The translations under genes and the position numbers were made by a program. The notes below the pieces were generated by a model. That model was not told the DNA's origin, searched no databases, and saw only the letters and a program-made list of their open reading frames with translations. From a virus, in IMG/VR virus record IMGVR_UViG_3300020469_003886, positions 1 through 64,000 of that record: DNA of 64,000 nt; one strand, 5' to 3'. Positions 4,442-62,327 of the stretch are shown piece after piece (within the stretch, counting starts at the first letter, position 1; each line of letters opens with the position of its first letter).

Positions 4442-4516
4442 TGGAGCGGGCGATCGGATTCGAACCGACGACCCTTTCGTTGGCAACGAAATGCTCTACC
4501 ACTGAGCTACGCCCGC
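4442..4516 (-). tRNA. tRNA-Gly(GCC)
   Basis: Cloverleaf with acceptor GCGGGCG/CGCCCGC, anticodon loop TTGCCAA (anticodon GCC), T-loop GGTTCGAATCC, and an encoded CCA. It has its own strong promoter 10 nt upstream and is followed by a methyltransferase gene. Confidence 0.97.
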
Positions 4517-4565: not shown

Positions 4566-4805
4566 TTAATCTTTTTGCTTCTTTTTAACATCTTTAAGTG
4601 TTTTAACTTTGGTTCTTAATCTAATTAAATCATTATCAAGCATACGTACTCTATCAATTAACTGAATTAGTGTTCCAGAAACTGCACCTAATTTTGGCTT
4701 AATAAATTTTACAATATAATTATAAAGGTAATATATAAAGTAAGCCAAAAAGAATACTGCTACAATTGGAAATCCATAATAGTTAATTAATTCTACAATG
4801 TCCAT
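4566..4805 (-). CDS. small membrane protein with coiled-coil tail, 79 aa
   Basis: One N-terminal transmembrane helix (about residues 9-32), then a basic and amphipathic tail with a likely coiled coil (LIQLIDRVRMLDNDLIRLRT) ending in lysines. It aligns along its length with the 92-aa protein encoded at 5010-5288, suggesting a duplication. The layout resembles small holin- or spanin-like phage membrane proteins (BhlA/UviB-type), but no lysis genes are next to it, so function is unassigned. Confidence 0.75.
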   Translation of the reverse strand: MDIVELINYYGFPIVAVFFLAYFIYYLYNYIVKFIKPKLGAVSGTLIQLIDRVRMLDNDLIRLRTKVKTLKDVKKKQKD

Positions 4806-5009: not shown

Positions 5010-5288
5010 TTAATCTTTTCTTGCATCTTCTTTGCCATCTGCTCTGGCTATTCTATCTGTGTCTACTGGTAAACCAAGTTGTTCTGAAACTTCATTATCA
5101 ATTTTAAGTATATCATTATTCATTGTTTTTATTCTATTGTCTAATGACTCAATTACACTTTTAATAAAATCAATTGAGCTTACAATACTACTTAATATGT
5201 AATTTATAACAATCATGATGAAAATGCCAGATGCAATTGCGGCCGCAATTGGCAAACCTAAATCAGCGATGATTGTCCAAAAATTCAT
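5010..5288 (-). CDS. small membrane protein with coiled-coil tail, 92 aa
   Basis: N-terminal Ala/Ile-rich transmembrane helix (about residues 8-35), then a heptad-like segment (VIESLDNRIKTMNNDILKID) and a charged tail ending KEDARKD. Paralogue of the 79-aa protein at 4566-4805: the same G-hydrophobic start, Asn-Tyr-Ile turn and LDNR/MLDND core. A late-like CATAAATA lies about 30 nt upstream. Role unknown. Confidence 0.75.
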   Translation of the reverse strand: MNFWTIIADLGLPIAAAIASGIFIMIVINYILSSIVSSIDFIKSVIESLDNRIKTMNNDILKIDNEVSEQLGLPVDTDRIARADGKEDARKD

Positions 5289-5330: not shown

Positions 5331-7376
5331 TTATTTTGTTGTTGCTATGAACACCCCATTCCAATCTTTTGGAAGATCTTGAGTTTTCATATACTCACAA
5401 CGTTCTATCCACATTGTGTAATAGTCTTTCATTTTACCTTCAAAATGTTGTTTTAATCTTTCACAGTGATATATTGCTTCATCAAAGTTTTGTGATTGAT
5501 ATGCTTCGTGCATTTGATCATGTAGTTTTTTGCTGTTGTGATAATCTTTTTTTACATCATCTAACACTGTATAAATTCTAATACCAATAGTTTTTCCTTT
5601 TACAGCAAGTTCATCTATCTTTAAGTAAAAAAATTGTGTATGTGTTGCATCGTAGGTATTTTCACCTACTAGTAATACACACCCATATTCTTTGCACTTT
5701 GACTCAATACGAGCCGCTGTGCTCACAGCATCACCAAGTACATCATATGAATGTCTTTCAGTTGATCCCATTTCTCCTAAATATCCAAGTCCTGTGTTTA
5801 TACCAGCACCCATACCAATTGGAGGTCTTCCTTCTGATGTAATTTTATCATTAAACTTGTCTACTGCTTTTAGCATGTTTAATCCTGTTTTAACTGCTGT
5901 ACAAGGGTGATCTAAATCGTCAATGGGTGCATTGTGTATATGCATTGATGCATCACCAATATATTTTATAACCATGCCATCAGCATCTAGTATTGGCTGT
6001 GTAATAGCATCCATATATCCGTTCATTATTTTTGTTAATCCTTGAACATCATCACCAAATGATTCTCCTAATGGTGTGAAGCCACGTAAATCAGAGAAGC
6101 AAATAGAAACTTCTTTTTTTATACCTTCTTTAATTAGTTTTGGATTTTCTTGTAACATTTTAACAACTGTTGGAGAACAATAGCCAGCAAATTGTTTTTT
6201 AATTGCTTGTTTCTCAAAAAATTCTTTTGCAAATCTATTAAACACTGCATGAAAGCCTGTCAGTGATGCCACTAATAATATCCAACTGACATCCCATAAC
6301 TGTAGATGTCTTGTGAATGCAAAGTATGATGCATAACCTGTGCCTGTCCAAAACACAACAAATGCTATACCAATCAGCCAATATGGCGCAAACGTTGCCA
6401 GTAATACTAATAATAATGCAACTACCCCTGCTGTAACGTATTCTACAAATGTTGCATAGTCTGTTCTAACAATATTGTCTCCACTTATAATTGTTTGCAA
6501 TCCTACTGCTATAGGGTCATGTGAATATCTTTCGCCATTTGGTGTAGCAATCACAGAACCTATTCCTTCTGCTGTTATACCTACAATAACTGTTTTGCCT
6601 TGTACCATATCAAATTCATCTACTACACTAATTCTCTCAAACTGTTTGTTCCAACGTAACCATATCTGTCCATTTGGATCTGTTTTAATTACAGGATAGC
6701 CTGGTACACGAACTGCTTGTACTCCGCTTGGTCCTGCTTTAACTTGATAACTTGGTGCACCTGTTGCCACACGTATTGTTTCAATTGTCATAGAAGGATA
6801 TGTTTCTCCTCCTACTGTAACTATCAACGGCATTCTTCTTACCACACCATCTATTTCAGGTGCTGTGTTGATCACTCCTACACCGTCTGCATTTTGTCCT
6901 AGTATTTCAATTGGACCTAACATGCCAGGCCAATTAAACAAGTATGGAATTGGATCACCTATTTTAGCAACACCTCTTGGCACTGAATTTTTATCTACAC
7001 CTTGTGCTGTACCAACTTGTGCTATAACTACACCATTTTGATTTAGTGCAAACACTAATTCATTGTCGCCACCTAATCTATCTGGTTCTGAGAATAAAAC
7101 TGGCAACACAATTATTCCTGCACCTGCTTCACGCAACTGCCAAATGATATCAGCAATTGTTTTTCTGTTCCAAGGCCATTGCCCATACTTTTCAATAGCA
7201 CGTTCATCTATTTCGACTATCACAACATCATTACTAATAGTAGGAACATCATATTGTTGTACCACATCAAAACTTTTTAATCTTGCTAGTTTCTTGACAT
7301 AAGGATCTGAAAATCCCCATACCATTAATAATGTGAGTGTAACAAATGCTAAAATCCAATGTGTAAAATATTTCAT
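5331..7376 (-). CDS. CHASE2-domain class III adenylate/guanylate cyclase
   Basis: 681 aa. An N-terminal anchor helix (1-22) precedes an extracytoplasmic CHASE2 sensor (about 35-300). Three membrane helices follow (about 312-385), then a cytosolic cyclase domain (about 420-600) and a TPR-like tail ending in the family-typical DWNGVFIATTK. Catalytic features: metal Asp in CFSDLRGF (D429) and YIGDASM (D475), substrate Lys K471, adenine-site Asp in YDVLGDA (D545), and R556. It should make cAMP (or cGMP) in response to an envelope signal. It directly follows a curli/FecR block; CHASE2 cyclases and FecR proteins are often neighbours in bacteria. A transmembrane cyclase is very unusual on a phage. 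Confidence 0.93.
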   Translation of the reverse strand: MKYFTHWILAFVTLTLLMVWGFSDPYVKKLARLKSFDVVQQYDVPTISNDVVIVEIDERAIEKYGQWPWNRKTIADIIWQLREAGAGIIVLPVLFSEPDRLGGDNELVFALNQNGVVIAQVGTAQGVDKNSVPRGVAKIGDPIPYLFNWPGMLGPIEILGQNADGVGVINTAPEIDGVVRRMPLIVTVGGETYPSMTIETIRVATGAPSYQVKAGPSGVQAVRVPGYPVIKTDPNGQIWLRWNKQFERISVVDEFDMVQGKTVIVGITAEGIGSVIATPNGERYSHDPIAVGLQTIISGDNIVRTDYATFVEYVTAGVVALLLVLLATFAPYWLIGIAFVVFWTGTGYASYFAFTRHLQLWDVSWILLVASLTGFHAVFNRFAKEFFEKQAIKKQFAGYCSPTVVKMLQENPKLIKEGIKKEVSICFSDLRGFTPLGESFGDDVQGLTKIMNGYMDAITQPILDADGMVIKYIGDASMHIHNAPIDDLDHPCTAVKTGLNMLKAVDKFNDKITSEGRPPIGMGAGINTGLGYLGEMGSTERHSYDVLGDAVSTAARIESKCKEYGCVLLVGENTYDATHTQFFYLKIDELAVKGKTIGIRIYTVLDDVKKDYHNSKKLHDQMHEAYQSQNFDEAIYHCERLKQHFEGKMKDYYTMWIERCEYMKTQDLPKDWNGVFIATTK

Positions 7377-7379
7377 ATA

Positions 7380-7724
7380 CTATCCTATTAGCACTAAGGT
7401 TGGTTCACCTGAGATTAAACTTACGATTACACTTGCTATTGCCCAAATTATTAATAGGTAACCTAGCCACCAATACCATTTGTTGCCACGCTTGTCCATA
7501 AACTTTTTAGTTGCACGTTTTGTTCCCAATGGATCTTTTGATGCTGACCAACCAAACAGTTTATCACTCCAACTAAAAGGAGGTGCTTTCCATAATACTA
7601 CAGGAATCATCAAGTAAAATAAGAACACTGGATAATCATCTGATGGTTCAGTATGTCCTAGCCATATAGTGATTCCTAGTATTCCTAGCAAATACCAACC
7701 TATTTTTTTTCTTAAGTGGTTCAT
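7380..7724 (-). CDS. inner-membrane protein, 114 aa
   Basis: Three to four hydrophobic helices (about residues 8-24, 30-46, 84-112) around a basic cytoplasmic loop. Not recognised. It lies 3 nt upstream of the cyclase start and is probably co-translated with it, so it may be a partner or assembly factor for the cyclase. Confidence 0.7.
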   Translation of the reverse strand: MNHLRKKIGWYLLGILGITIWLGHTEPSDDYPVFLFYLMIPVVLWKAPPFSWSDKLFGWSASKDPLGTKRATKKFMDKRGNKWYWWLGYLLIIWAIASVIVSLISGEPTLVLIG

Positions 7725-7728
7725 ACTC

Positions 7729-7878
7729 TTATTTATTGTAGTTTATTGGATTCAACATTTTATCCCAATGTGGTCCAACTGCTTCCCAATATTCACGTCC
7801 TGGATTGTGATATATCAAACTAGCAAATACTAAGAATAATACTGACAAGACAACTGTTAATGATACAAGATCTTTCAT
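7729..7878 (-). CDS. small single-pass membrane protein, 49 aa
   Basis: Begins MKDLVSLTVVLSVLFLVFAS, a signal-anchor helix, followed by a hydrophilic tail (YHNPGREYWEAVGPHWDKML). The AGAGG-type Shine-Dalgarno is about 9 nt upstream, and the stop is 4 nt before the start of the next membrane protein. Not recognised. Position, RBS and fit between neighbours support a real gene. Confidence 0.65.
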   Translation of the reverse strand: MKDLVSLTVVLSVLFLVFASLIYHNPGREYWEAVGPHWDKMLNPINYNK

Positions 7879-7923
7879 TTCTTTGCCTCTCTTAATTTTT
7901 AAAATTGCTCTTAATTGTATTTA

Positions 7924-9405
7924 TTAGTTTTGTGTAATTGTTGTGGTTCCACATCCGTTCACATTGGTACAGTTTTGATCCAATGAGTATGTTTGATTAC
8001 TAGAACCTGTTTGATCTAGATCAAGTGTTGATGAATATCCTTCCATGTCAATTGTTGCTGACATGTTGCCAGAACCGTCTTGGTTTACATCTATGGTTTG
8101 GTTACTGCCTGCTGTAACATCTAAAAAATGTTCACCAGTGCCTTGCTGTGCAAGATCAATGTCATTTGAAGAACCATTTACATCCACAAACATGATTTTG
8201 TCGCCATCATCTTTTTGATCCATATACATAATGTTACTGTTGCCATCAACATCCACACTCATAAAATGGCCTTCATCTCCAACCCCCATGCCATCATTTT
8301 CTTGTACTGTTCCTATTGTGTTGTAGTCGCCTGTAACATCAATTATCAATCTGGCTTCGCCTGTGTCATCTACATTGTCACCTTGTCTTACATTAAGATT
8401 ATTGTTGTCGCCATCAACACCTATAAGCACTACGTTGTTATCACTGGTTGATCCTGCAGAGTTACCTTGTGTGATTGATACAGTATTATCATCGCCTGAT
8501 ATCACAGCATCAGCAATGGTAGAACTTGTAGTTGATGTTCCTGCTACAAGGTTGCTGTTGTCATTTTGAACAATGTCTAGATCCAAGTTATCACCTACTT
8601 GATCAATGTAGATAGCATTGCTATTTCCACTCGATGTTATATTTCTTGTGTTGGTAACTGTTGTTTGCTGTGTTGAACTTATGCTTGATGTGTATGTTGT
8701 CGTAGATGAAGAATATAACTCACTTATAAGGTCATCCATGTCTGCTCCGTCATATGTAGTAGTAAATTGATTAATATCAAATGTTACATAAACTTCACCT
8801 GTGTATCCGTTAGGTAATTCACTGCCAGACCATTTCATCCATAGGATTTTTCCACTTGTACTTTTTACTACCCAAGTGCCATCGCCAGTGAAATGAGCAC
8901 CATAGGCATATACACCAACATTGGAATAACTAGACACACCTGCCGATGTGTTTGTTTGTGTCATACTACAATCGTTGCCACAACTTCCGCCGCCTGTGGT
9001 ACCTTGGAAAGTCAATGTGCCACCAAGTTTGTTTTGTATAAAAGCCCTAACGGTATTGTTTGTGTTTGAGTAATTGGCATGGTTTTCGCCAGTGATGACT
9101 AACACTCCGCCATTTTCTACAAAATCATCATACCTGTCTTTACCGTTGCTACCAATATTGTTGTTGTATTTCAAATCAAAAACAACATCATAATTGTTAA
9201 TTAGGTTATCTGGTACAGCACCATCAGTTGATAATGTAACTGTGTAACCGTCTGCTTCTAATTGTGCTTTTACATTTGTGTGAGCATCTTGATAGTTGCT
9301 GTGCATAATCAAGGCAGTATCTGCTTTAACAGTGTTACTTAATGTCATAAAAATAACTATGCCAAACAATATAAAAGTCAATCTTGTTATCAATCTTTCA
9401 AACAT
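7924..9405 (-). CDS. secreted ThuA/GATase-like domain fused to curlin repeats
   Basis: 493 aa. Signal peptide (about 1-28), then a Rossmann-like domain (about 30-215) reminiscent of ThuA-like/type-1 glutamine-amidotransferase folds (TALIMHSNYQDAHTNVKAQL, FDLKYNN, GGVLVITGENHANY). A Ser/Thr linker leads to a C-terminal half of curlin-like Asn/Gln/Asp repeats (NAIYIDQVGDNLDLDIVQ and many D-x-N-x-I/V-x-Q units) ending in TTTITQN. The repeat opening closely matches the neighbouring curlin protein. Probably exported through CsgG and built into, or capping, an amyloid-like fibre. Its ATG overlaps the FecR gene stop (TAATG). The fold of the N-terminal domain is a moderate-confidence call. Confidence 0.75.
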   Translation of the reverse strand: MFERLITRLTFILFGIVIFMTLSNTVKADTALIMHSNYQDAHTNVKAQLEADGYTVTLSTDGAVPDNLINNYDVVFDLKYNNNIGSNGKDRYDDFVENGGVLVITGENHANYSNTNNTVRAFIQNKLGGTLTFQGTTGGGSCGNDCSMTQTNTSAGVSSYSNVGVYAYGAHFTGDGTWVVKSTSGKILWMKWSGSELPNGYTGEVYVTFDINQFTTTYDGADMDDLISELYSSSTTTYTSSISSTQQTTVTNTRNITSSGNSNAIYIDQVGDNLDLDIVQNDNSNLVAGTSTTSSTIADAVISGDDNTVSITQGNSAGSTSDNNVVLIGVDGDNNNLNVRQGDNVDDTGEARLIIDVTGDYNTIGTVQENDGMGVGDEGHFMSVDVDGNSNIMYMDQKDDGDKIMFVDVNGSSNDIDLAQQGTGEHFLDVTAGSNQTIDVNQDGSGNMSATIDMEGYSSTLDLDQTGSSNQTYSLDQNCTNVNGCGTTTITQN

Positions 9406-10499
9406 TAATTTTGTGATATGCTGATGTTGTTACCAGCACCTCCATCTCCTACATTAAAATTTCTCATTCTAAAATCTTCTTGATCTAAATCAATTGTGTA
9501 ACCATATTGTTTACTTAATCTAAGTTGTACCACACTGTTGGCACCTTCTTTTCTAAACAACCACGACTCTCCTTGATCAAGTACTGTAACACCTTCTGCT
9601 TCTGTTATTGCTTTCTTTTTAACAAACACATCTGTGAGTTGTGACAAAAACTCTTGTGAAAGTATCTTGTTGATTTGGTCAAGCACATCAATTAAAAAAT
9701 CTCCTGCCAAGAAATCAATGTCTAACTGTGTTTGCCATTGGCTGTCATCGTTAGCAAGTAAATCTTGATTGAGTATTTCTAGTTCTAAAAAATCTAATCC
9801 CAATATATCTGCAACCACCTGCGTTCTCTCTGTTTCTACCACTTCGTCAATTTCTTTTGGTGGTGATAATATCAAAAGGTTGCCAATGAACGATTCGTCC
9901 ATTTCCAACAACACTGCTGGAGTTGGTCTGCTTTCTGCTACATCTACCCTTGTGGCTTGGAATGCTTCATTGAGAATTACCTGTCCCATGTCAGAATCAA
10001 CTGCAATTTCCCCTACCACGCAATCGCCATTGGTATTACAACTTGGCAATAGAATGATTGTTGAACCTCCGAGTTCATCAACAATCATTGCAAAGTCTGT
10101 ACCACGTACACCAATCGTTGCTGTTGGTGTTTTAATTGTTACGTTTTCTCTAAAATCTTTTGCTATCTGTCCTGATGCATATCTTACTGTGCCTAGTGCG
10201 GCAGTTATTGTAAGACTTCCTTGATTATTTGCTGGGTCATACACAAACTCATCAATAATTAATTTTGAATGTTCTGTTATTTCAACACGAGTATCATCGA
10301 TGAAGTTGATTGCTGTCCTTCCTTGACCTACCATTACTTCGTCATAGGAAAAAACTCCAAGGCTTGTTTCTATATCAAACTTCTCACCGTCTGTGCGTTT
10401 GATCTGACCGTTTCCTTGAATCTCACTTACTTCACCAATGGTTGCTTGTGCTGATGACCAGGCTACTAGAGTGACTAATAGCACTATTATAAATCGCAT
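9405..10499 (-). CDS. secreted FecR-domain protein
   Basis: 364 aa with a Sec signal peptide (cleavage likely after SSAQA). The FecR beta-helical domain spans about 20-160 (YDEVMVGQGRTAINFIDDTR; TIKTPTATIGVRGTDFAMIV is the classic FecR core). A helical segment and a short beta C-terminus ending in NNISISQN follow, like a single curlin repeat. FecR proteins often sit beside CHASE2 cyclases, as here. Likely periplasmic or surface-exposed, possibly the ligand or anchor sensed by the cyclase; that link is inference from gene order. Not a TonB-linked FecR (no sigma factor or receptor nearby). Confidence 0.88.
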   Translation of the reverse strand: MRFIIVLLVTLVAWSSAQATIGEVSEIQGNGQIKRTDGEKFDIETSLGVFSYDEVMVGQGRTAINFIDDTRVEITEHSKLIIDEFVYDPANNQGSLTITAALGTVRYASGQIAKDFRENVTIKTPTATIGVRGTDFAMIVDELGGSTIILLPSCNTNGDCVVGEIAVDSDMGQVILNEAFQATRVDVAESRPTPAVLLEMDESFIGNLLILSPPKEIDEVVETERTQVVADILGLDFLELEILNQDLLANDDSQWQTQLDIDFLAGDFLIDVLDQINKILSQEFLSQLTDVFVKKKAITEAEGVTVLDQGESWLFRKEGANSVVQLRLSKQYGYTIDLDQEDFRMRNFNVGDGGAGNNISISQN

Positions 10500-10504
10500 A
10501 ATAA

Positions 10505-11215
10505 TTAGTCACTCTGAGTAATATCTACATCGTGTTCGTCACCGCTAAAGTCTGCGTCTACCACTGCATCATTAGTACCACTTTGTGTAACGTTGTAAGT
10601 TGAACCACCACCTGTGATATCTAAATTCACTGTGTGTCCGTTACTGTCACCGTTACCGTCCATTGTTATGACAACTGCGTTACCTTCATCGTTATCAGTT
10701 GAATTAGTTGATAAAGATGATGCGTTGTTCATTACTAATGTTACTGCCGCTGATGTACCATCAACGTCTGTTGTGATCACGTTATGGTCACCTGTTACCG
10801 TAAAGTTTGCTACCATGTTATCGGCTGTTGCTGTTTCACCAACATAAACTGTATATGCGTTGTCGTCACCTGTTGTCGTAATATTAAGTGTAACGTCATC
10901 ACATTTACCTGCTGATGCTGTTGAACATTTTAGGTCTACAGTGTTTGAGTTACCTGTAAACGTCCATGTACCTGTGTAGTTTGCTCCTTTGATAACTGCA
11001 TCAATTACGTTTGTGTTACCTGTTTGTGTGATTGCGAAAGTCATATCATCACCTGCCAAGGTCACATCAGTTGTGCCGTCACCAAATTGGTTATTGGTTC
11101 CATCTTGTGTGATATCTAAATCTAGTGTATCACCAATTTGATCTATATAGATATCATTAGCCAATGCTGGTAAACTAAACATCACTAAAAATAATGTTAT
11201 AATCCACGTTTTCAT
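10505..11215 (-). CDS. curlin-like amyloid subunit
   Basis: 236 aa. Signal peptide ending PALAN, then Asn/Asp/Thr/Gly-rich repeats from NDIYIDQIGDTLDLDITQDG to the terminal HDVDITQSD. The spacing (I-x-I-x-Q-x-G-x-x-N) matches curlin repeats. Two cysteines around residues 98 and 105 are unusual for a curli subunit. It overlaps csgG by ATGA, so it is coupled to its secretion pore. It should form the extracellular fibre. Assigned as curlin-like rather than csgA because the repeats are divergent and no separate CsgB nucleator is evident. Confidence 0.85.
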   Translation of the reverse strand: MKTWIITLFLVMFSLPALANDIYIDQIGDTLDLDITQDGTNNQFGDGTTDVTLAGDDMTFAITQTGNTNVIDAVIKGANYTGTWTFTGNSNTVDLKCSTASAGKCDDVTLNITTTGDDNAYTVYVGETATADNMVANFTVTGDHNVITTDVDGTSAAVTLVMNNASSLSTNSTDNDEGNAVVITMDGNGDSNGHTVNLDITGGGSTYNVTQSGTNDAVVDADFSGDEHDVDITQSD

Positions 11216-12039
11216 TTGCTTCCCTCTCCGTTATGGTGCATTGTGTGAGGAGTATATGTAACTTTGTATGTCCATAATCCCTTGTCTGCACCTTGCTCTA
11301 CTACTTCAACTATGCACTGCTCAATTGCGGCTCTCACTGCATAATTGACTGGCTCATTAAATGCTGAACCAGATTCTATTTCAATTAACTTTGTACCAAG
11401 GTCTAAAAATTTAAACACATCAGCACCAGTTGAATAACTTGCTATGTCTTTTTGTGTTGCAACGGAAAGGAGAACTTCTCCGGAGCTCACTGAAACAATA
11501 CGCATTGCCACTGTTACTGTGTCAACACGATATTGAGTTTTGCCACCAATACCTAAATATCTAGCGCCGGCGCCTCCTGTGACTACATTTGAATCATAGC
11601 CAACAACTGCGCCTTCAACAATCAATCCGGCAAACAACAAAGGTTTTAACTTTTTGTCTTTTTCGCCATCGTATTGTTCTCTAGTTGATCTTATCAATTG
11701 TCTTTCTTTGACCAAGTTGTCAAGACCACCACGTTCTACAACTTGGAACCAAGTACCATTGCCTACTTCTTGTAATGCTTGTATAACCCATACTTCAGCA
11801 CCTTGTGTAACTGCCGAACTCAATTGGCTGAAGTTTGTATTTGGTTTACGTTGACCAGTCTTATCACCAAAATTATAAACTGCAATTGTGATCCTAGGAC
11901 CATCTAATTCTGGTATCTTTTGAAAAAGTTTTATTAATGGTGCTTCTGCATTTACAGGAAGTTTGTATCCTGTCATACCAGCATGTCCGGCACATCCTGC
12001 CAAGGCTATCAATAATAATAAAGCAAATATCTGTCTCAT
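11212..12039 (-). CDS. csgG: curli secretion channel CsgG
   Basis: 275 aa, matching CsgG length (277 in E. coli). Lipobox LAGC near residue 15 marks the outer-membrane lipoprotein. The CsgG core is clear: ITIAVYNFGDKTGQ, GAEVWVIQALQEV, WFQVVERGGLDNLVKERQ, LLFAGLIVEGAVVGYDSN, YRVDTVTVAMRIVSVSSGEV. The start chosen is ATG 12039, one base after the csgF stop; the upstream extension of the frame has no signal sequence. Forms the nonameric pore that exports curlins. Strong family call; very unusual in a phage context. Confidence 0.96.
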   Translation of the reverse strand: MRQIFALLLLIALAGCAGHAGMTGYKLPVNAEAPLIKLFQKIPELDGPRITIAVYNFGDKTGQRKPNTNFSQLSSAVTQGAEVWVIQALQEVGNGTWFQVVERGGLDNLVKERQLIRSTREQYDGEKDKKLKPLLFAGLIVEGAVVGYDSNVVTGGAGARYLGIGGKTQYRVDTVTVAMRIVSVSSGEVLLSVATQKDIASYSTGADVFKFLDLGTKLIEIESGSAFNEPVNYAVRAAIEQCIVEVVEQGADKGLWTYKVTYTPHTMHHNGEGSK

Positions 12040-12040
12040 G

Positions 12041-12499
12041 TTAAAATCCAAAATCCCCAACTGGTACCGTAAGTGTTGTAACAGTACCATCTGCTTCAGT
12101 AATTCTAATTGATATTGTTCCTAAGTCTGTGTCTCTTTCCCAAAAGATTGTAGCACCTTCAATTTCTGCTGTGCCTGTTGATGCACCATCAGAAGCGAAC
12201 ATATTATCTACCAATTGTTTAGATAGATTAGCATATATTCTTGATTCAACGTTTGCTATGAATTTGTTTATTACTTCGTTCTTTTCATCACGTTCAGCAT
12301 CTCTAAGTTTTCTTTCTTCATTTTTGCGTATTTCTTCTTTACGCTGAAATTGAAGTTGTTCAGTTGCTAGGTAATGATTGGATTGCCCGATACCTGAAAA
12401 GGATGGGTTTGAAAATTCTTGGACTAATTCGCTGGCCTGAATAGGACTTGTGAAAAGTGCGAACGCCAGAACGGTAGTGTATAATGCTTTTATTTTCAT
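12041..12499 (-). CDS. csgF: curli assembly factor CsgF
   Basis: 152 aa with a signal peptide ending QASE. The mature start ELVQEFSNPSFSGIGQSN is the CsgF signature that inserts into the CsgG pore (compare NPSFGG). A basic helix follows, then a beta C-terminus ending TVPVGDFGF. Couples pore exit to fibre nucleation at the cell surface. First gene of the curli block. The leader holds a 9-bp inverted repeat next to the ATG. No csgE or csgD homologue is seen nearby. Confidence 0.93.
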   Translation of the reverse strand: MKIKALYTTVLAFALFTSPIQASELVQEFSNPSFSGIGQSNHYLATEQLQFQRKEEIRKNEERKLRDAERDEKNEVINKFIANVESRIYANLSKQLVDNMFASDGASTGTAEIEGATIFWERDTDLGTISIRITEADGTVTTLTVPVGDFGF

Positions 12500-12818: not shown

Positions 12819-14024
12819 TTAGTTAAATCTTTTGTATATTTCTTTTAAACAGTCTATAAGATAATCAACTTCTTGTTTGGTGCTGTATACACCTGTTGAT
12901 ATCCTACAGGAACCTGTCCATCCTATTTGCCTATGTAACATCTGTGTACAATGATGTCCTGGTCTTGTTGCTATACCATATACATCTAAAAATGATGCCA
13001 TATCTTGATGATGTATGTTGCCAAGATTAAATGATATCACTGCACTACGTTTATCAGTACCAATAAATTTCATTTCTGGCAATTCAGACATTTTTTGATA
13101 AGCATAGTTGATTACTTCTTCTTCATGTTTGACCATTTCATCAAAATTAGTATCAACATAAAAATTTAATGCTTCATGCAATCCAACAATTTCTGTAACT
13201 GCTAGTGTGCCTGCTTCCCATTTTTTAGATCCTTCAGCAAAATCAACATCATCATGGGACACTGTTGTTATCATTCCGCCACCGCCTAATGCTGGATCTA
13301 AATTGTCGATCCATTTACGTTTTGCATACATAACTCCAATTCCACTTGGACCGTACATTTTATGTCCACTCATTGCATAAAAGTCACAATCTAAATCTTG
13401 CATATCAATTTTGATATGTGGTGCACCTTGTGTACCATCAACTGCAACTGCAATATTATGTTTGTGTGCAATATCACAAACACGTTTTATATCTACTGTT
13501 TGCCCTGTTGTGTTTGACACATGAGTAATTGCAATAATTTTTGTGCGATCTGTGATTAATGATTCTAACTGATCAATATCTACTTGATGCTGTTCGTTAA
13601 CTTTTAAAAATTTAATCACTGCTCCATTAAATTTTCTTTGTAAATGCCATGGTATGTAATTAGAATGATGTTCAACTTCTGTTGTGATAATTTCATCACC
13701 TGGTTTCATTGTTCTACCAAATGATGTCGAAACCATATTGATTGCTTCTGTGGCTGATTTTGTAAAAACAATTTCATCTTTGTCTTTGGCATTTATAAAA
13801 TCAGCAACTGCCTGCCTACTGCTTTCTACTAATGCTGTTGCATGATTTGATAATTCGTGTATGCTTCTTCCAATACTTGAATATTCTTCAGTCATAAATT
13901 TATTCATTCTATCAATCACACGTTGTGGCTTTTGTGATGAGTTTGCACTGTCTAAATACACTAATGGTTTACCACTAGGTAATTGTTTATTCAATATTGG
14001 AAATTGTGATCTAATATGTTCCAT
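12819..14024 (-). CDS. sufS: cysteine desulfurase, SufS type
   Basis: 401 aa, full length. Class V PLP enzyme that takes sulfur from cysteine for Fe-S clusters. PLP lysine in SGHKMYGP (K222), catalytic persulfide Cys in RPGHHC (C359) and the RISTGVYST end of group II desulfurases are all present. It starts 11 nt after the 3' end of tRNA-Ala with no Shine-Dalgarno. SufBCD and SufE are not in the window, but Nfu and a SufT-like protein are (57.2-58.1 kb). Together with six radical SAM enzymes this suggests element-encoded Fe-S maturation. Confidence 0.93.
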   Translation of the reverse strand: MEHIRSQFPILNKQLPSGKPLVYLDSANSSQKPQRVIDRMNKFMTEEYSSIGRSIHELSNHATALVESSRQAVADFINAKDKDEIVFTKSATEAINMVSTSFGRTMKPGDEIITTEVEHHSNYIPWHLQRKFNGAVIKFLKVNEQHQVDIDQLESLITDRTKIIAITHVSNTTGQTVDIKRVCDIAHKHNIAVAVDGTQGAPHIKIDMQDLDCDFYAMSGHKMYGPSGIGVMYAKRKWIDNLDPALGGGGMITTVSHDDVDFAEGSKKWEAGTLAVTEIVGLHEALNFYVDTNFDEMVKHEEEVINYAYQKMSELPEMKFIGTDKRSAVISFNLGNIHHQDMASFLDVYGIATRPGHHCTQMLHRQIGWTGSCRISTGVYSTKQEVDYLIDCLKEIYKRFN

Positions 14025-14035
14025 AAAAATCTTTC

Positions 14036-14111
14036 TGGTGGAGGATAGCGGGATCGAACCGCTGACCTCCTGAATGCAAATCAGGCGCTCTCCCGGCTGA
14101 GCTAATCCCCC
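14036..14111 (-). tRNA. tRNA-Ala(TGC)
   Basis: Acceptor GGGGGAT/ATCCTCC, anticodon loop TTTGCAT (TGC), T-loop GGTTCGATCC, encoded CCA. The first 10 nt double as the last three codons of the SGNH gene upstream: its TAG stop is tRNA nucleotides 8-10. Confidence 0.97.
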
Positions 14112-17471: not shown

Positions 17472-18395
17472 TTAGAACGTAAATTTAAGACCAGTTGAAT
17501 AACCGTCAGTATCTATAGTAGATCCTGTGTTATCTGTGTGCTGATATTCAGCATAAGTCGATAACGATTCAGTTATTCCGTACGATAATCCGGCAGTGTA
17601 GTATGCAGTTGAATCTTCAACTTTACCATAACCACCTGTAAGTTTTGCCTTACCTTTGGTATATGTAGCAACTACTTCATTGCCAGTCACATCTGTTGCG
17701 GCATCTTTTTCAGTATATGTGTAACCAATTGTTACAGGCATACCTAAAGATGAAACATCTGCGGTTATACCAACACCATAGTAATATATGTCATTGACTT
17801 CGTCACTTGACATACCACCTGATGCTGTTATTACGCCGGCGTCATATGTTACTGTACCTTCTGATACATCAACACCATCTTTACCAGTTGAGCCATCTAT
17901 TTTGACTAAACCGTCAAATGTAAGTTTACCTATATTGTTACTATAGGCAATTGTGTTTGTATCACGTGTGAACAAATTTTGATCAGCACTTGAACCATAC
18001 ACTTCAAATACATCTGTGTGACCACTTACATTTGTTGTAAATGGTGATGCTTGACGACCCGCTGACAACGATCCTACAGGACCAAAGTTTAGACCAACAA
18101 GGGCTAATCTTGAATCCAATGGATTATTGTTCGAATCATCAGTATCAACGCCAAGTTCAAGTTTAGCAAAGCCAGTTATGCCTTCACCAATACCTTCTTC
18201 AGCATCAATACCAATAAACGATGAGTTGTTTTCTGCTTTCATATATGAATTGCCACTTGAATTCTCATCATTGCTTAACTTATAGTTAATAGAACCGTAG
18301 ATGTTTACTTCGGCTTCTGCTTCACTACAAGCAGTCAATGAGAATACAGATGCAAGTGCAACTATGAATGCTATGCTTATATATTTTCTCATCAT
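17472..18395 (-). CDS. Gram-negative general porin-like outer-membrane protein
   Basis: 307 aa. N-terminal export signal, then VNIYGSINYKL, the usual first porin strand. There are many alternating beta strands, a PEFG-like loop region and a terminal Phe (TGLKFTF) required for outer-membrane assembly. The signal ends LTAC-SEAEAEV, so either a lipobox Cys or an AEA signal-peptidase I site could be used. Strong RBS AAGGAGG; the second of two consecutive ATGs (18392) has better spacing. It has its own consensus promoter and a long hairpin-rich leader. A porin on a phage would alter outer-membrane permeability or replace the receptor. Confidence 0.88.
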   Translation of the reverse strand: MMRKYISIAFIVALASVFSLTACSEAEAEVNIYGSINYKLSNDENSSGNSYMKAENNSSFIGIDAEEGIGEGITGFAKLELGVDTDDSNNNPLDSRLALVGLNFGPVGSLSAGRQASPFTTNVSGHTDVFEVYGSSADQNLFTRDTNTIAYSNNIGKLTFDGLVKIDGSTGKDGVDVSEGTVTYDAGVITASGGMSSDEVNDIYYYGVGITADVSSLGMPVTIGYTYTEKDAATDVTGNEVVATYTKGKAKLTGGYGKVEDSTAYYTAGLSYGITESLSTYAEYQHTDNTGSTIDTDGYSTGLKFTF

Positions 18396-19235: not shown

Positions 19236-19311
19236 TGGTGCCGGCAGAGAGATTCGAACTCCCGACCTGACGATTACAAATCGCCTGCTCTACCAACTGA
19301 GCTACGCCGGC
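19236..19311 (-). tRNA. tRNA-Thr(TGT)
   Basis: Acceptor GCCGGCG/TGCCGGC, anticodon loop TTTGTAA (TGT), T-loop AGTTCGAATCT, encoded CCA. Followed 11 nt later by a start codon. Confidence 0.97.
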
Positions 19312-36891: not shown

Positions 36892-36967
36892 TGGCTCCGC
36901 AGGCAGGACTCGAACCTGCGACCAATTGATTAACAGTCAACTGCTCTACCAACTGAGCTACTGCGGA
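36892..36967 (-). tRNA. tRNA-Asn(GTT)
   Basis: Acceptor TCCGCAG/CTGCGGA, anticodon loop CTGTTAA (GTT), T-loop GGTTCGAGTCC, encoded CCA. Nucleotides 8-10 (TAG) form the stop of the gene upstream. Confidence 0.97.
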
Positions 36968-45826: not shown

Positions 45827-45901
45827 TGGCATTCCCTAGGAGAATCGAACTCCTCTTTCCTGGATGAAAACCAGGTGTCCTAACCGATAGACGAAGGGAA
45901 C
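45827..45901 (-). tRNA. tRNA-Glu(TTC)
   Basis: Acceptor GTTCCCT/AGGGAAT (first pair G-U), anticodon loop TTTTCAT (TTC), T-loop AGTTCGATTCT, encoded CCA after G73. Confidence 0.95.
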
Positions 45902-57247: not shown

Positions 57248-57556
57248 TTAAATTCCTAATGCTAATCTGGCCTCTTCACTCATCATATCTTGAGAAAAAG
57301 GTGGATCAAATGTTGTTTCAATAAAACAGGAATCAACTCCTTCAACATCCATAGCCGCATGTTTGATATCTGCTACAATTTGGTCTGCCGCTGGACAAAA
57401 TGCTGATGTTAATGTATGTGTGATACAAGCCTTTGGTAGTTCTGATAGATCAATATTATATATCAATCCAAGATCATAAATGTTGATAGATATTTCAGGA
57501 TCATACACTTCACGTAAGTTTTCAATAATTTTTTCTTTTGTTTGGTCTGGGGTCAT
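57248..57556 (-). CDS. SufT/MIP18-type (DUF59) Fe-S assembly protein
   Basis: 102 aa. DPEISINIYDLGLIYNIDLS is the DUF59/MIP18 signature; LTSAFCPAADQIVAD holds the conserved Cys; the end is PFSQDMMSEEARLALG. Helps target Fe-S clusters to clients. Overlaps nfu by ATGA, so the two are co-translated. Confidence 0.9.
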   Translation of the reverse strand: MTPDQTKEKIIENLREVYDPEISINIYDLGLIYNIDLSELPKACITHTLTSAFCPAADQIVADIKHAAMDVEGVDSCFIETTFDPPFSQDMMSEEARLALGI

Positions 57557-58122
57557 ACTGCTTCAACTGTATGTACTTCTGAGATGTAATGTTTTAACAT
57601 ATTTTCAATGCCCATTTTGAGAGTTGCTGTCGAGCTCGGACAGCCTGAACAAGCACCATACATTTCTAAATACACAGTTCCATTTTCAAAACTGTGAAAA
57701 ATAATATCTCCGCCATCCATTGCTACTGCTGGTCTTACACGTTCATCAAGTAGTTGGACTATTTTTTTTGTGATTTTATCTGTACCTGCATCATCATTAA
57801 TTGTTTCACAAGCAGGTTTTGTTTCTTCAACAATAAATGGTCCTTCACTGTGATATCTAATTGTTTCTGTAATATCGCTTTTGATATCTTCCCATTCTAC
57901 TGTGTCGTCTTTACCTACTGTAATAAAGTCTGACCCAAAAAATACATCTTGTATTCCATTTATTTTAAACAGTGCGTATGCCACAGGAGCATCTGCAGAT
58001 GGATTACCTTCAGGATCTTTTTTATAAAAAAGTGGTGTTTTGTTGCCTCTGACATCTACGTTAGGTAAGAATTTTAAAGCATTTGGATTTGGGGTTAATT
58101 CTGTTTGTATCATCATTTCCAT
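57553..58122 (-). CDS. NfuA/NifU-like Fe-S scaffold/carrier
   Basis: 189 aa. N-terminal Nfu_N domain (TPNPNALKFLPN; FKINGIQDVFFGSDFITVGK) and C-terminal NifU domain with VAMDGGDIIF and CSGCPSS (C158, C161, cluster-binding CxxC). Typical alphaproteobacterial Nfu layout. Delivers 4Fe-4S clusters to target enzymes. Leaderless ATG 58122. Confidence 0.93.
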   Translation of the reverse strand: MEMMIQTELTPNPNALKFLPNVDVRGNKTPLFYKKDPEGNPSADAPVAYALFKINGIQDVFFGSDFITVGKDDTVEWEDIKSDITETIRYHSEGPFIVEETKPACETINDDAGTDKITKKIVQLLDERVRPAVAMDGGDIIFHSFENGTVYLEMYGACSGCPSSTATLKMGIENMLKHYISEVHTVEAV

Positions 58123-62172: not shown

Positions 62173-62249
62173 TGGCGGGAGTGAAGGGACTCGAACCCTC
62201 GGCCTTCCGCGTGACAGGCGGACGCTCTAACCAACTGAGCTACACCCCC
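62173..62249 (-). tRNA. tRNA-Asp(GTC)
   Basis: Acceptor GGGGGTG/CACTCCC (one G-U pair), anticodon loop CTGTCAC (GTC), T-loop GGTTCGAGTCC, encoded CCA. 2 nt after tRNA-Val. Confidence 0.97.
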
Positions 62250-62251
62250 AA

Positions 62252-62327
62252 TGGTGGGTAATACAGGACTCGAACCTATGACCCTCTCGGTGTAAACGAG
62301 ATGCTCTACCAACTGAGCTAATCACCC
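62252..62327 (-). tRNA. tRNA-Val(TAC)
   Basis: Acceptor GGGTGAT/ATTACCC, anticodon loop TTTACAC (TAC), T-loop GGTTCGAGTCC, encoded CCA. Nucleotides 8-10 (TAG) are the stop codon of speD. Confidence 0.97.

Follow-up and report, generated by a model that had tools for sequence, protein, structure and literature searches.

It has been reported that phages can carry curli secretion genes, and these have been interpreted in the literature as serving lysis, nutrient import or aggregation, with the FecR-domain protein of the set taken as an iron regulator that stands beside a histidine kinase. Phage csgF and csgG were reported by Zaragoza-Solas et al. 2020 (PMC7029224), and Wittmers et al. 2022 (PMC9599517) described the whole module, including FecR, an adenylate cyclase and 'HK', in podo- and myo-type pelagiphages and already proposed aggregation and superinfection protection. 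For Methylophilales phage Melnitz, a lysis pore with an altered pore model has been proposed (PMC9004378); the same work states that curlin genes are missing in Melnitz, yet the annotation of this phage lists CsgF, CsgG, curlin, FecR, curlin and cyclase, and that of pelagiphage HTVC008M lists CsgF, CsgG, curlin and cyclase. Curli genes have also been described in a T4-like virus genome with presumed marine Bacteroidetes hosts (PMC7198788), and our literature search returned no further paper on phage-encoded curli. The present work concerns a csg block at positions 5331-12499 of a 64,000-nucleotide stretch (the window), which corresponds to bases 1-64000 of the 92,102-base IMG/VR virus record IMGVR_UViG_3300020469_003886. 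A first-pass annotation of this DNA had held the combination of genes to be undescribed, a claim that the publications and annotations above overturn. Analysis of the individual parts leads to alternatives, with FecR as a fibre anchor and the 'kinase' as a pair of small membrane proteins, and both the parts and the spread of the published gene set appear to have been partly misread.

Composition of the csg block

The block is best read as a phage-encoded type VIII (curli) secretion module, by which the infected cell would export anchored curli-like adhesive fibres and a cyclase would read the state of the envelope, a function that we infer from the parts and to which we assign a probability of roughly 0.55. 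All its genes lie on the minus strand, in the order csgF, csgG, curlin-1, FecR and ThuA-like/curlin-2, then two genes for small membrane proteins and last a class III cyclase with a CHASE2 domain, as established from open reading frames and Pfam. Judged by gene content, the pore, the pore chaperone, the two curlins, the FecR-domain protein, the CHASE2 cyclase and a further small pair are shown to travel together in many phages.

The csgF gene (12041-12499, minus strand; PF10614, E 7.8e-15) adjoins csgG in phage loci, and its product had no match in a single-sequence search of the PDB. The csgG gene (11212-12090, minus strand), encoding the outer-membrane lipoprotein pore, matches PF03783 (E 1.3e-54) and PDB CsgG chains (E 4e-49), including the solved E. 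coli CsgG; its start is likely the inner ATG near 12039, which would yield a normal lipobox, the Cys of which is invariant in all 28 phage sequences aligned. Between curlin-2 and the cyclase, where two small membrane proteins had been predicted, there are indeed a 49-aa single-membrane-span protein (7729-7878, minus strand), with an EYW..VG..WDKMLNP motif that recurs in eight viral loci, and a 114-aa multi-span membrane protein (7380-7724, minus strand) that is confined to close relatives (L010 and L032) and has no Pfam match. The gene families and coordinates of the first-pass annotation are thus borne out, as is its operon-like coupling of the block genes.

Two further observations concern CsgG itself. 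In one phage group with contigs of up to 357 kb (L223-L225) the protein carries a long C-terminal extension with an SH3-like stretch at its end, and a 1.5-kb 'Salmonella phage' record (OR851715.1), which is perhaps host DNA, holds a csgG at 41% identity.

The FecR-domain protein

The FecR-domain protein REINTERPRETED (9405-10499, minus strand; PF04773, E 1.1e-8) was modelled with AlphaFold at a predicted local distance difference test (pLDDT) score of 79.5, and the model comprises a signal helix and a FecR beta domain at residues 20-195, followed, after a linker of poor prediction quality, by a distinct beta domain at the C-terminus (residues 297-362) that ends in a curlin-type strand. According to both Pfam and this model the FecR domain follows directly after the signal helix, with no cytoplasmic anti-sigma part. 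In Foldseek searches the first part matches the FecR domain of PupR (6ovk) and the cell-surface anchoring domain of MpAFP (5ix9), the latter with a probability of 1.00, a template modelling (TM) score of 0.75 by target length and 1.0 Å over 62 columns. Among 33 aligned phage sequences the final Gln of the tail is invariant and an upstream Gln is more than 90% conserved; a curlin-type end strand is present in 35 of 37 distinct FecR tails, against 3.8 expected from shuffles, and in none of the 85 CsgF/CsgG tails used as a control. In addition, a profile of the FecR tail could be aligned to the C-terminal end of curlin-2 (P 3e-4; 0.15-0.47 for three control profiles). Because the protein lacks a cytoplasmic regulator part, has a domain resembling an adhesin anchor and ends in curlin-type tails, a role in anchoring or capping the fibre is more probable for it than one in iron regulation.

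Outside phages, a FecR profile matched 102 and a cyclase profile 155 of 289 alphaproteobacterial genomes, and in at least 29 of these genomes, as judged by comparing the lists of places by eye, no more than about 3 kb separates a FecR-domain gene from a CHASE2-cyclase gene. The alphaproteobacterial FecR domain fronts giant RTX or Calx-beta proteins: all ten that were sampled are long, and in the portions read, six of the ten contain stretches of RTX or Calx-beta type. Since the two genes co-locate in alphaproteobacteria and FecR fronts such proteins, FecR and the CHASE2 cyclase together resemble a bacterial pair for envelope sensing with ties to surface proteins, which in the window would be joined to curli.

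Curlin subunits

Curlin-1 (10505-11215, minus strand), the putative fibre subunit, has a signal peptide, three Curlin_rpt stretches with a match (E 0.00099) just under the Pfam cut-off, and an end reading ...DVDITQSD, a tail motif found in 35 of 35 relatives. Curlin-2 (7924-9405, minus strand; Curlin_rpt E 1.1e-5) joins curlin repeats to an N-terminal domain that had been called ThuA-like. The domain has no Pfam match; AlphaFold modelled it with moderate confidence (pLDDT 69.5), and the best PDB neighbours of the model by Foldseek are ThuA-like proteins and IFT52 domains, headed by the ThuA-like 4jqs (probability 1.00, E 6e-3), with no neighbour below E 0.001. In the group of the window, curlin-2 has a ThuA-like N-terminal part; the corresponding part is PA14 in HTVC008M (27.7 bits, cut-off 24), of another kind in L038/L042 and L223, and missing in many. 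Such variation is as expected for a binding tip, and it is proposed that curlin-2 may be an adhesive minor subunit whose swappable N-terminal domain serves that purpose.

In several phages, large secreted proteins with a C-terminal Phe that resemble outer-membrane barrels are located between curlin-2 or FecR and the cyclase (L039:12865-14652, L040:11950-13959, L046:13254-15254 and L052:12696-14195); the one in L040 has no Pfam match.

The cyclase and a tandem small membrane pair

The cyclase gene (5331-7376, minus strand) encodes a CHASE2 domain (PF05226, 5.6e-39), membrane spans and a class III nucleotide cyclase (PF00211 Guanylate_cyc, 4.1e-16). The metal Asp, base-contact Lys and transition-state Arg (D429, K471, D475 and R556 in the window) are invariant in 28 aligned cyclases, and the corresponding patterns are present in 98 of 99 distinct ones. 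Two kinds of catalytic half occur, GDAVS..AAR in the window and in the independent contig L009 and the ordinary GDAVN..AAR in the close relative L032, with CHASE2 halves that are alike.

After the cyclase, the window carries a tandem pair of small membrane/coiled-coil proteins that the first-pass annotation had overlooked: protein A of 92 aa (about 5010-5288, minus strand; phrog_18771, an unnamed PHROG) and its diverged paralogue B (4566-4805, minus strand), found with the family-A profile by hmmsearch (E 7e-10). Besides the window, 53 of the 65 csg loci fetched from phages and viral contigs have the pair, which is always in tandem and varies in place: it precedes csgF, follows the cyclase or lies on the other strand. 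A scan for the pair alone returned at least 526 viral stretches, with csgF/csgG present in the fetched stretch of 45 of the best 80, and in 20 of the 22 cases where the full 20 kb surrounding the pair is available, one or more other genes of the module (cyclase, FecR or curlin/csg) are present, which rules out that these are ordinary core phage genes unrelated to curli. On these comparisons, the pair is a constant, phage-specific part of the module that is new here. No kinase family of Pfam or PHROG matched it, and 5 of 20 members matched a PHROG named holin weakly (E about 1e-3). PMC9599517 places one or two 'HK' (histidine kinases) beside csgF in the pelagiphage module, and at that place relatives carry one pair of paralogues of about 90 aa; because of the matching place and the wording 'HK, sometimes two', the published 'HK' is probably this small membrane pair.

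Distribution in phages and bacteria

A single-sequence scan of genome contigs found no relative, and a profile scan did. The neighbourhood search proposed in the first-pass annotation was productive: the block order of the window recurs in the phages HTVC008M and Melnitz as well as on dozens of viral contigs, and ten viral contigs of 161-357 kb hold module genes together with a T4-type major capsid gene. Among 80 csgG loci examined in bacterial assemblies, three chromosomal ones have csgF-csgG-curlin-FecR-cyclase, two in Caulobacteraceae (L076 and L077) and one in Hyphomonas (L078, on a 705-kb contig). Cellular genes flank both sides of the L076 and L078 operons, the two that were read; the FecR proteins of L076 and L077 have a curlin-type tail, that of L078 is without the final Gln strand, and the small pair is absent from all three operons. 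Ordinary alphaproteobacterial csg loci have no FecR or cyclase beside csgG. Cellular csg operons with FecR and cyclase therefore exist, in contradiction to the published statement that they are absent from bacterial type VIII secretion system (T8SS) operons.

In a CsgG tree the phages together with L076/L078 are split from 28 ordinary loci (support 99), and the viral L231 and L270 stand next to L076/L078 (94); in a cyclase tree L076/L078 again fall within the phages (99-100). It is suggested that the FecR-cyclase curli operon may have moved from phage to bacterium, with Shimodaira-Hasegawa-like approximate likelihood ratio test (SH-aLRT) values in favour (94-100) and an approximately unbiased (AU) test that does not reject a single phage clade (p 0.08). 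Contigs with the module in metagenome-assembled genomes (MAGs) labelled 'Flavobacteriaceae', 'Rhodobacteraceae', 'Sphingobacteriales' and 'Synechococcus' (L069-L075, L085, L090, L093, L094, L114 and L123) were rejected as bacterial and treated as phage contigs in bacterial bins; most have the phage small pair and/or are interspersed with phage copies in the CsgG tree, and the two Sphingobacteriales contigs have a T4 capsid gene.

Proposed function and alternative explanations

During infection, CsgG-CsgF would export the curlins, which would form adhesive fibres on the infected cell. The signal peptide of FecR would direct it to the periplasm, where the FecR/retention-like domain would remain with the envelope and the curlin-type beta domain at the C-terminus would join or cap the fibre, thereby anchoring or nucleating it, and curlin-2 would show its swappable N-terminal domain as a specific binding tip. 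The CHASE2 domain, predicted to face the periplasm, could then signal the state of anchor or fibre inward by means of a cyclic nucleotide. The benefit would probably lie in the adhesion of infected cells, mutually or to surfaces, and in their protection from other phages. Sensing of the fibre or FecR state, an idea raised in the first-pass annotation, gains support from the proximity of FecR and CHASE2 genes in at least 29 genomes and from the curlin-like FecR tail, and is unproven. If the proposal is right, some very abundant aquatic phages would coat the surface of their host with adhesive fibres. In a wider and rather tentative version, large T4-type phages of sea and freshwater would possess a self-contained, self-sensing adhesin system with FecR as anchor or cap, interchangeable curlin-2 tips, an essential small pair and a cyclase that reads the anchor, and some bacteria would have obtained the operon from such phages.

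Several observations weigh against fibre export with envelope sensing. The likeness of FecR to the retention domain is limited to about 65 residues and is weak and marginal at the sequence level (E 0.025 against the MpAFP domain), and the profile alignment of the FecR tail with curlin-1 is not significant. At the positions of the E. coli CsgG constriction residues (Y51, N55 and F56), alignment with PDB CsgG places N, Q and L in the window, and because of these changes pore gating may differ from that of E. coli. The position of the ribose-orienting Asn in 99 distinct phage and related cyclases is Ser in 39, including the window, and Asn in 60, and Ser at this place may lower cyclase activity. 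A search for a cyclic nucleotide (cNMP)-binding domain was negative for this record, for HTVC008M and Melnitz, for two relatives and for one incomplete Pelagibacter MAG. CsgE (PF10627) is absent from the 92-kb record, in a search whose positive control worked, and neither csgD nor CsgC was noticed, in line with the first-pass annotation, which had seen no csgE or csgD; according to PMC9599517, alphaproteobacterial systems are also without CsgE, which is thus not required for membership there. Finally, the Melnitz authors observed no clumps of infected cells (PMC9004378).

The proposal of those authors, that CsgG-CsgF is a repurposed lysis or gated-release pore, here extended by the small pair as its holin-like partners, would draw on their altered pore model, the missing CsgE and the holin matches of the small proteins, but these matches are weak, and two curlins, a curlin-tailed FecR and variable curlin-2 N-termini, none of which is needed for lysis, are kept with the pore; we regard it as unlikely. 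That FecR is an iron-dependent regulator and that siderophores, vitamins or further nutrients enter through an open pore is an option listed in PMC9599517 and would suit the Pfam name and a pore without its CsgE gate. It appears improbable given that FecR lacks the cytoplasmic anti-sigma part and has a curlin-like tail, that fibre subunits are retained, and that neither a sigma factor nor a TonB receptor was noticed in the open reading frames beside the block, where no family search was made. The cyclase could instead be central, with a flood of cyclic nucleotide that steers host metabolism or beats nucleotide-based defence and with curli parts that control its activation. The catalytic core is kept and the type of catalytic half differs between close relatives that share alike CHASE2 halves, but L223-L225 keep FecR and curlins near csgG with no cyclase seen within the fetched flank, modules without cyclase also exist according to PMC9599517, and no receptor was found, so that little credence is given to this explanation.

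An assembly chimera or a bacterial chromosome might be suspected from the many cellular-type genes (SufS, SbmA, aldehyde dehydrogenase and ribosomal protein L11) and is extremely improbable. The independent contig L009 repeats the order SufS - csg block - small pair - methyltransferase - next gene, at amino acid identities of 88% for SufS, 83% for the methyltransferase and 78% for the next gene, and these matching junctions on both flanks exclude a chimera. The placement of the block on a phage in the first-pass annotation is confirmed by the virus record and by the DnaB-like helicase, T4-type NrdA/NrdB, phage ligase, exonuclease and tail-fibre genes that the record holds. For the module as a class, a chimera is refuted; the ten contigs with module genes and a T4-type capsid gene likewise argue against it. 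Fibre export with envelope sensing is the reading that we prefer.

Other features of the viral record

The nearest relatives of the NrdB of the record are pelagimyophages (65%), HTVC008M is nearest for its 661-aa phrog_455 protein, and its helicase is closest to PA5oct-type jumbo phages. Because no T4-type capsid gene was found on the 92 kb, the record is probably a fragment. The SufS-like aminotransferase gene (12819-14024) adjoins the csg block, and the SufS-csg block is bracketed by tRNA-Ala and tRNA-Gly. A Porin_4-type outer-membrane porin (17472-18395) has HTVC008M as its sole phage relative among 50,697 phage records. A NifU-type Fe-S gene lies at 57553-58122, and several radical-SAM-type proteins with CxxxCxxC-like motifs occur on this one phage (19713-20816, 22610-23869 and 46179-52899), which also has ClpP, ClpX, PRPP synthetase, IMP dehydrogenase, SbmA/BacA and aldehyde dehydrogenase. 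The ribosomal protein L11 gene (L002:4833-5255; record 68833-69255) matches both Pfam domains, and a search for it in HTVC008M, Melnitz and five related viral contigs was negative. The window also has seven tRNA genes, scattered for the most part singly between other genes (4442-4516, 14036-14111, 19236-19311, 36892-36967, 45827-45901 and 62173-62327), and a perfect TTGACA-17-TATAAT stands on the minus strand at 4555-4527, directly before tRNA-Gly. An Rfam search returned tRNAs only and no riboswitch, and promoters and terminators across the csg block are not more frequent than in shuffles.

Comparison with known systems

The closest described system is the pelagiphage T8SS module (PMC9599517; PMC7029224; HTVC008M, KC465899), which has the same csgF-csgG-curlin-FecR-curlin-cyclase order in a T4-related marine phage; the window differs in having a ThuA-like domain instead of PA14 on curlin-2, the small pair after the cyclase and SufS adjoining, and the published 'HK', whether it precedes or follows, is here a membrane/coiled-coil pair of about 90 aa per protein without a kinase domain. 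Phage Melnitz shares the six-gene order, with the small pair upstream and a shorter curlin-2 that is without the ThuA-like domain. CsgG, CsgF and curlin repeats are common to the window and to E. coli curli (csgBAC-csgDEFG), whereas the window is without CsgE, adds FecR, a CHASE2 cyclase and two small membrane proteins, and has changed CsgG constriction residues. The Caulobacteraceae/Hyphomonas operon (L076-L078) has the same genes and order as the window but is chromosomal and without the small pair. RTX adhesins have retention domains at their N-terminus (MpAFP region I, 5ix9; LapA) with a fold that appears to resemble the first part of FecR, which in the window is followed by a curlin-type tail and is partnered by a CsgG pore rather than by a type I secretion system.

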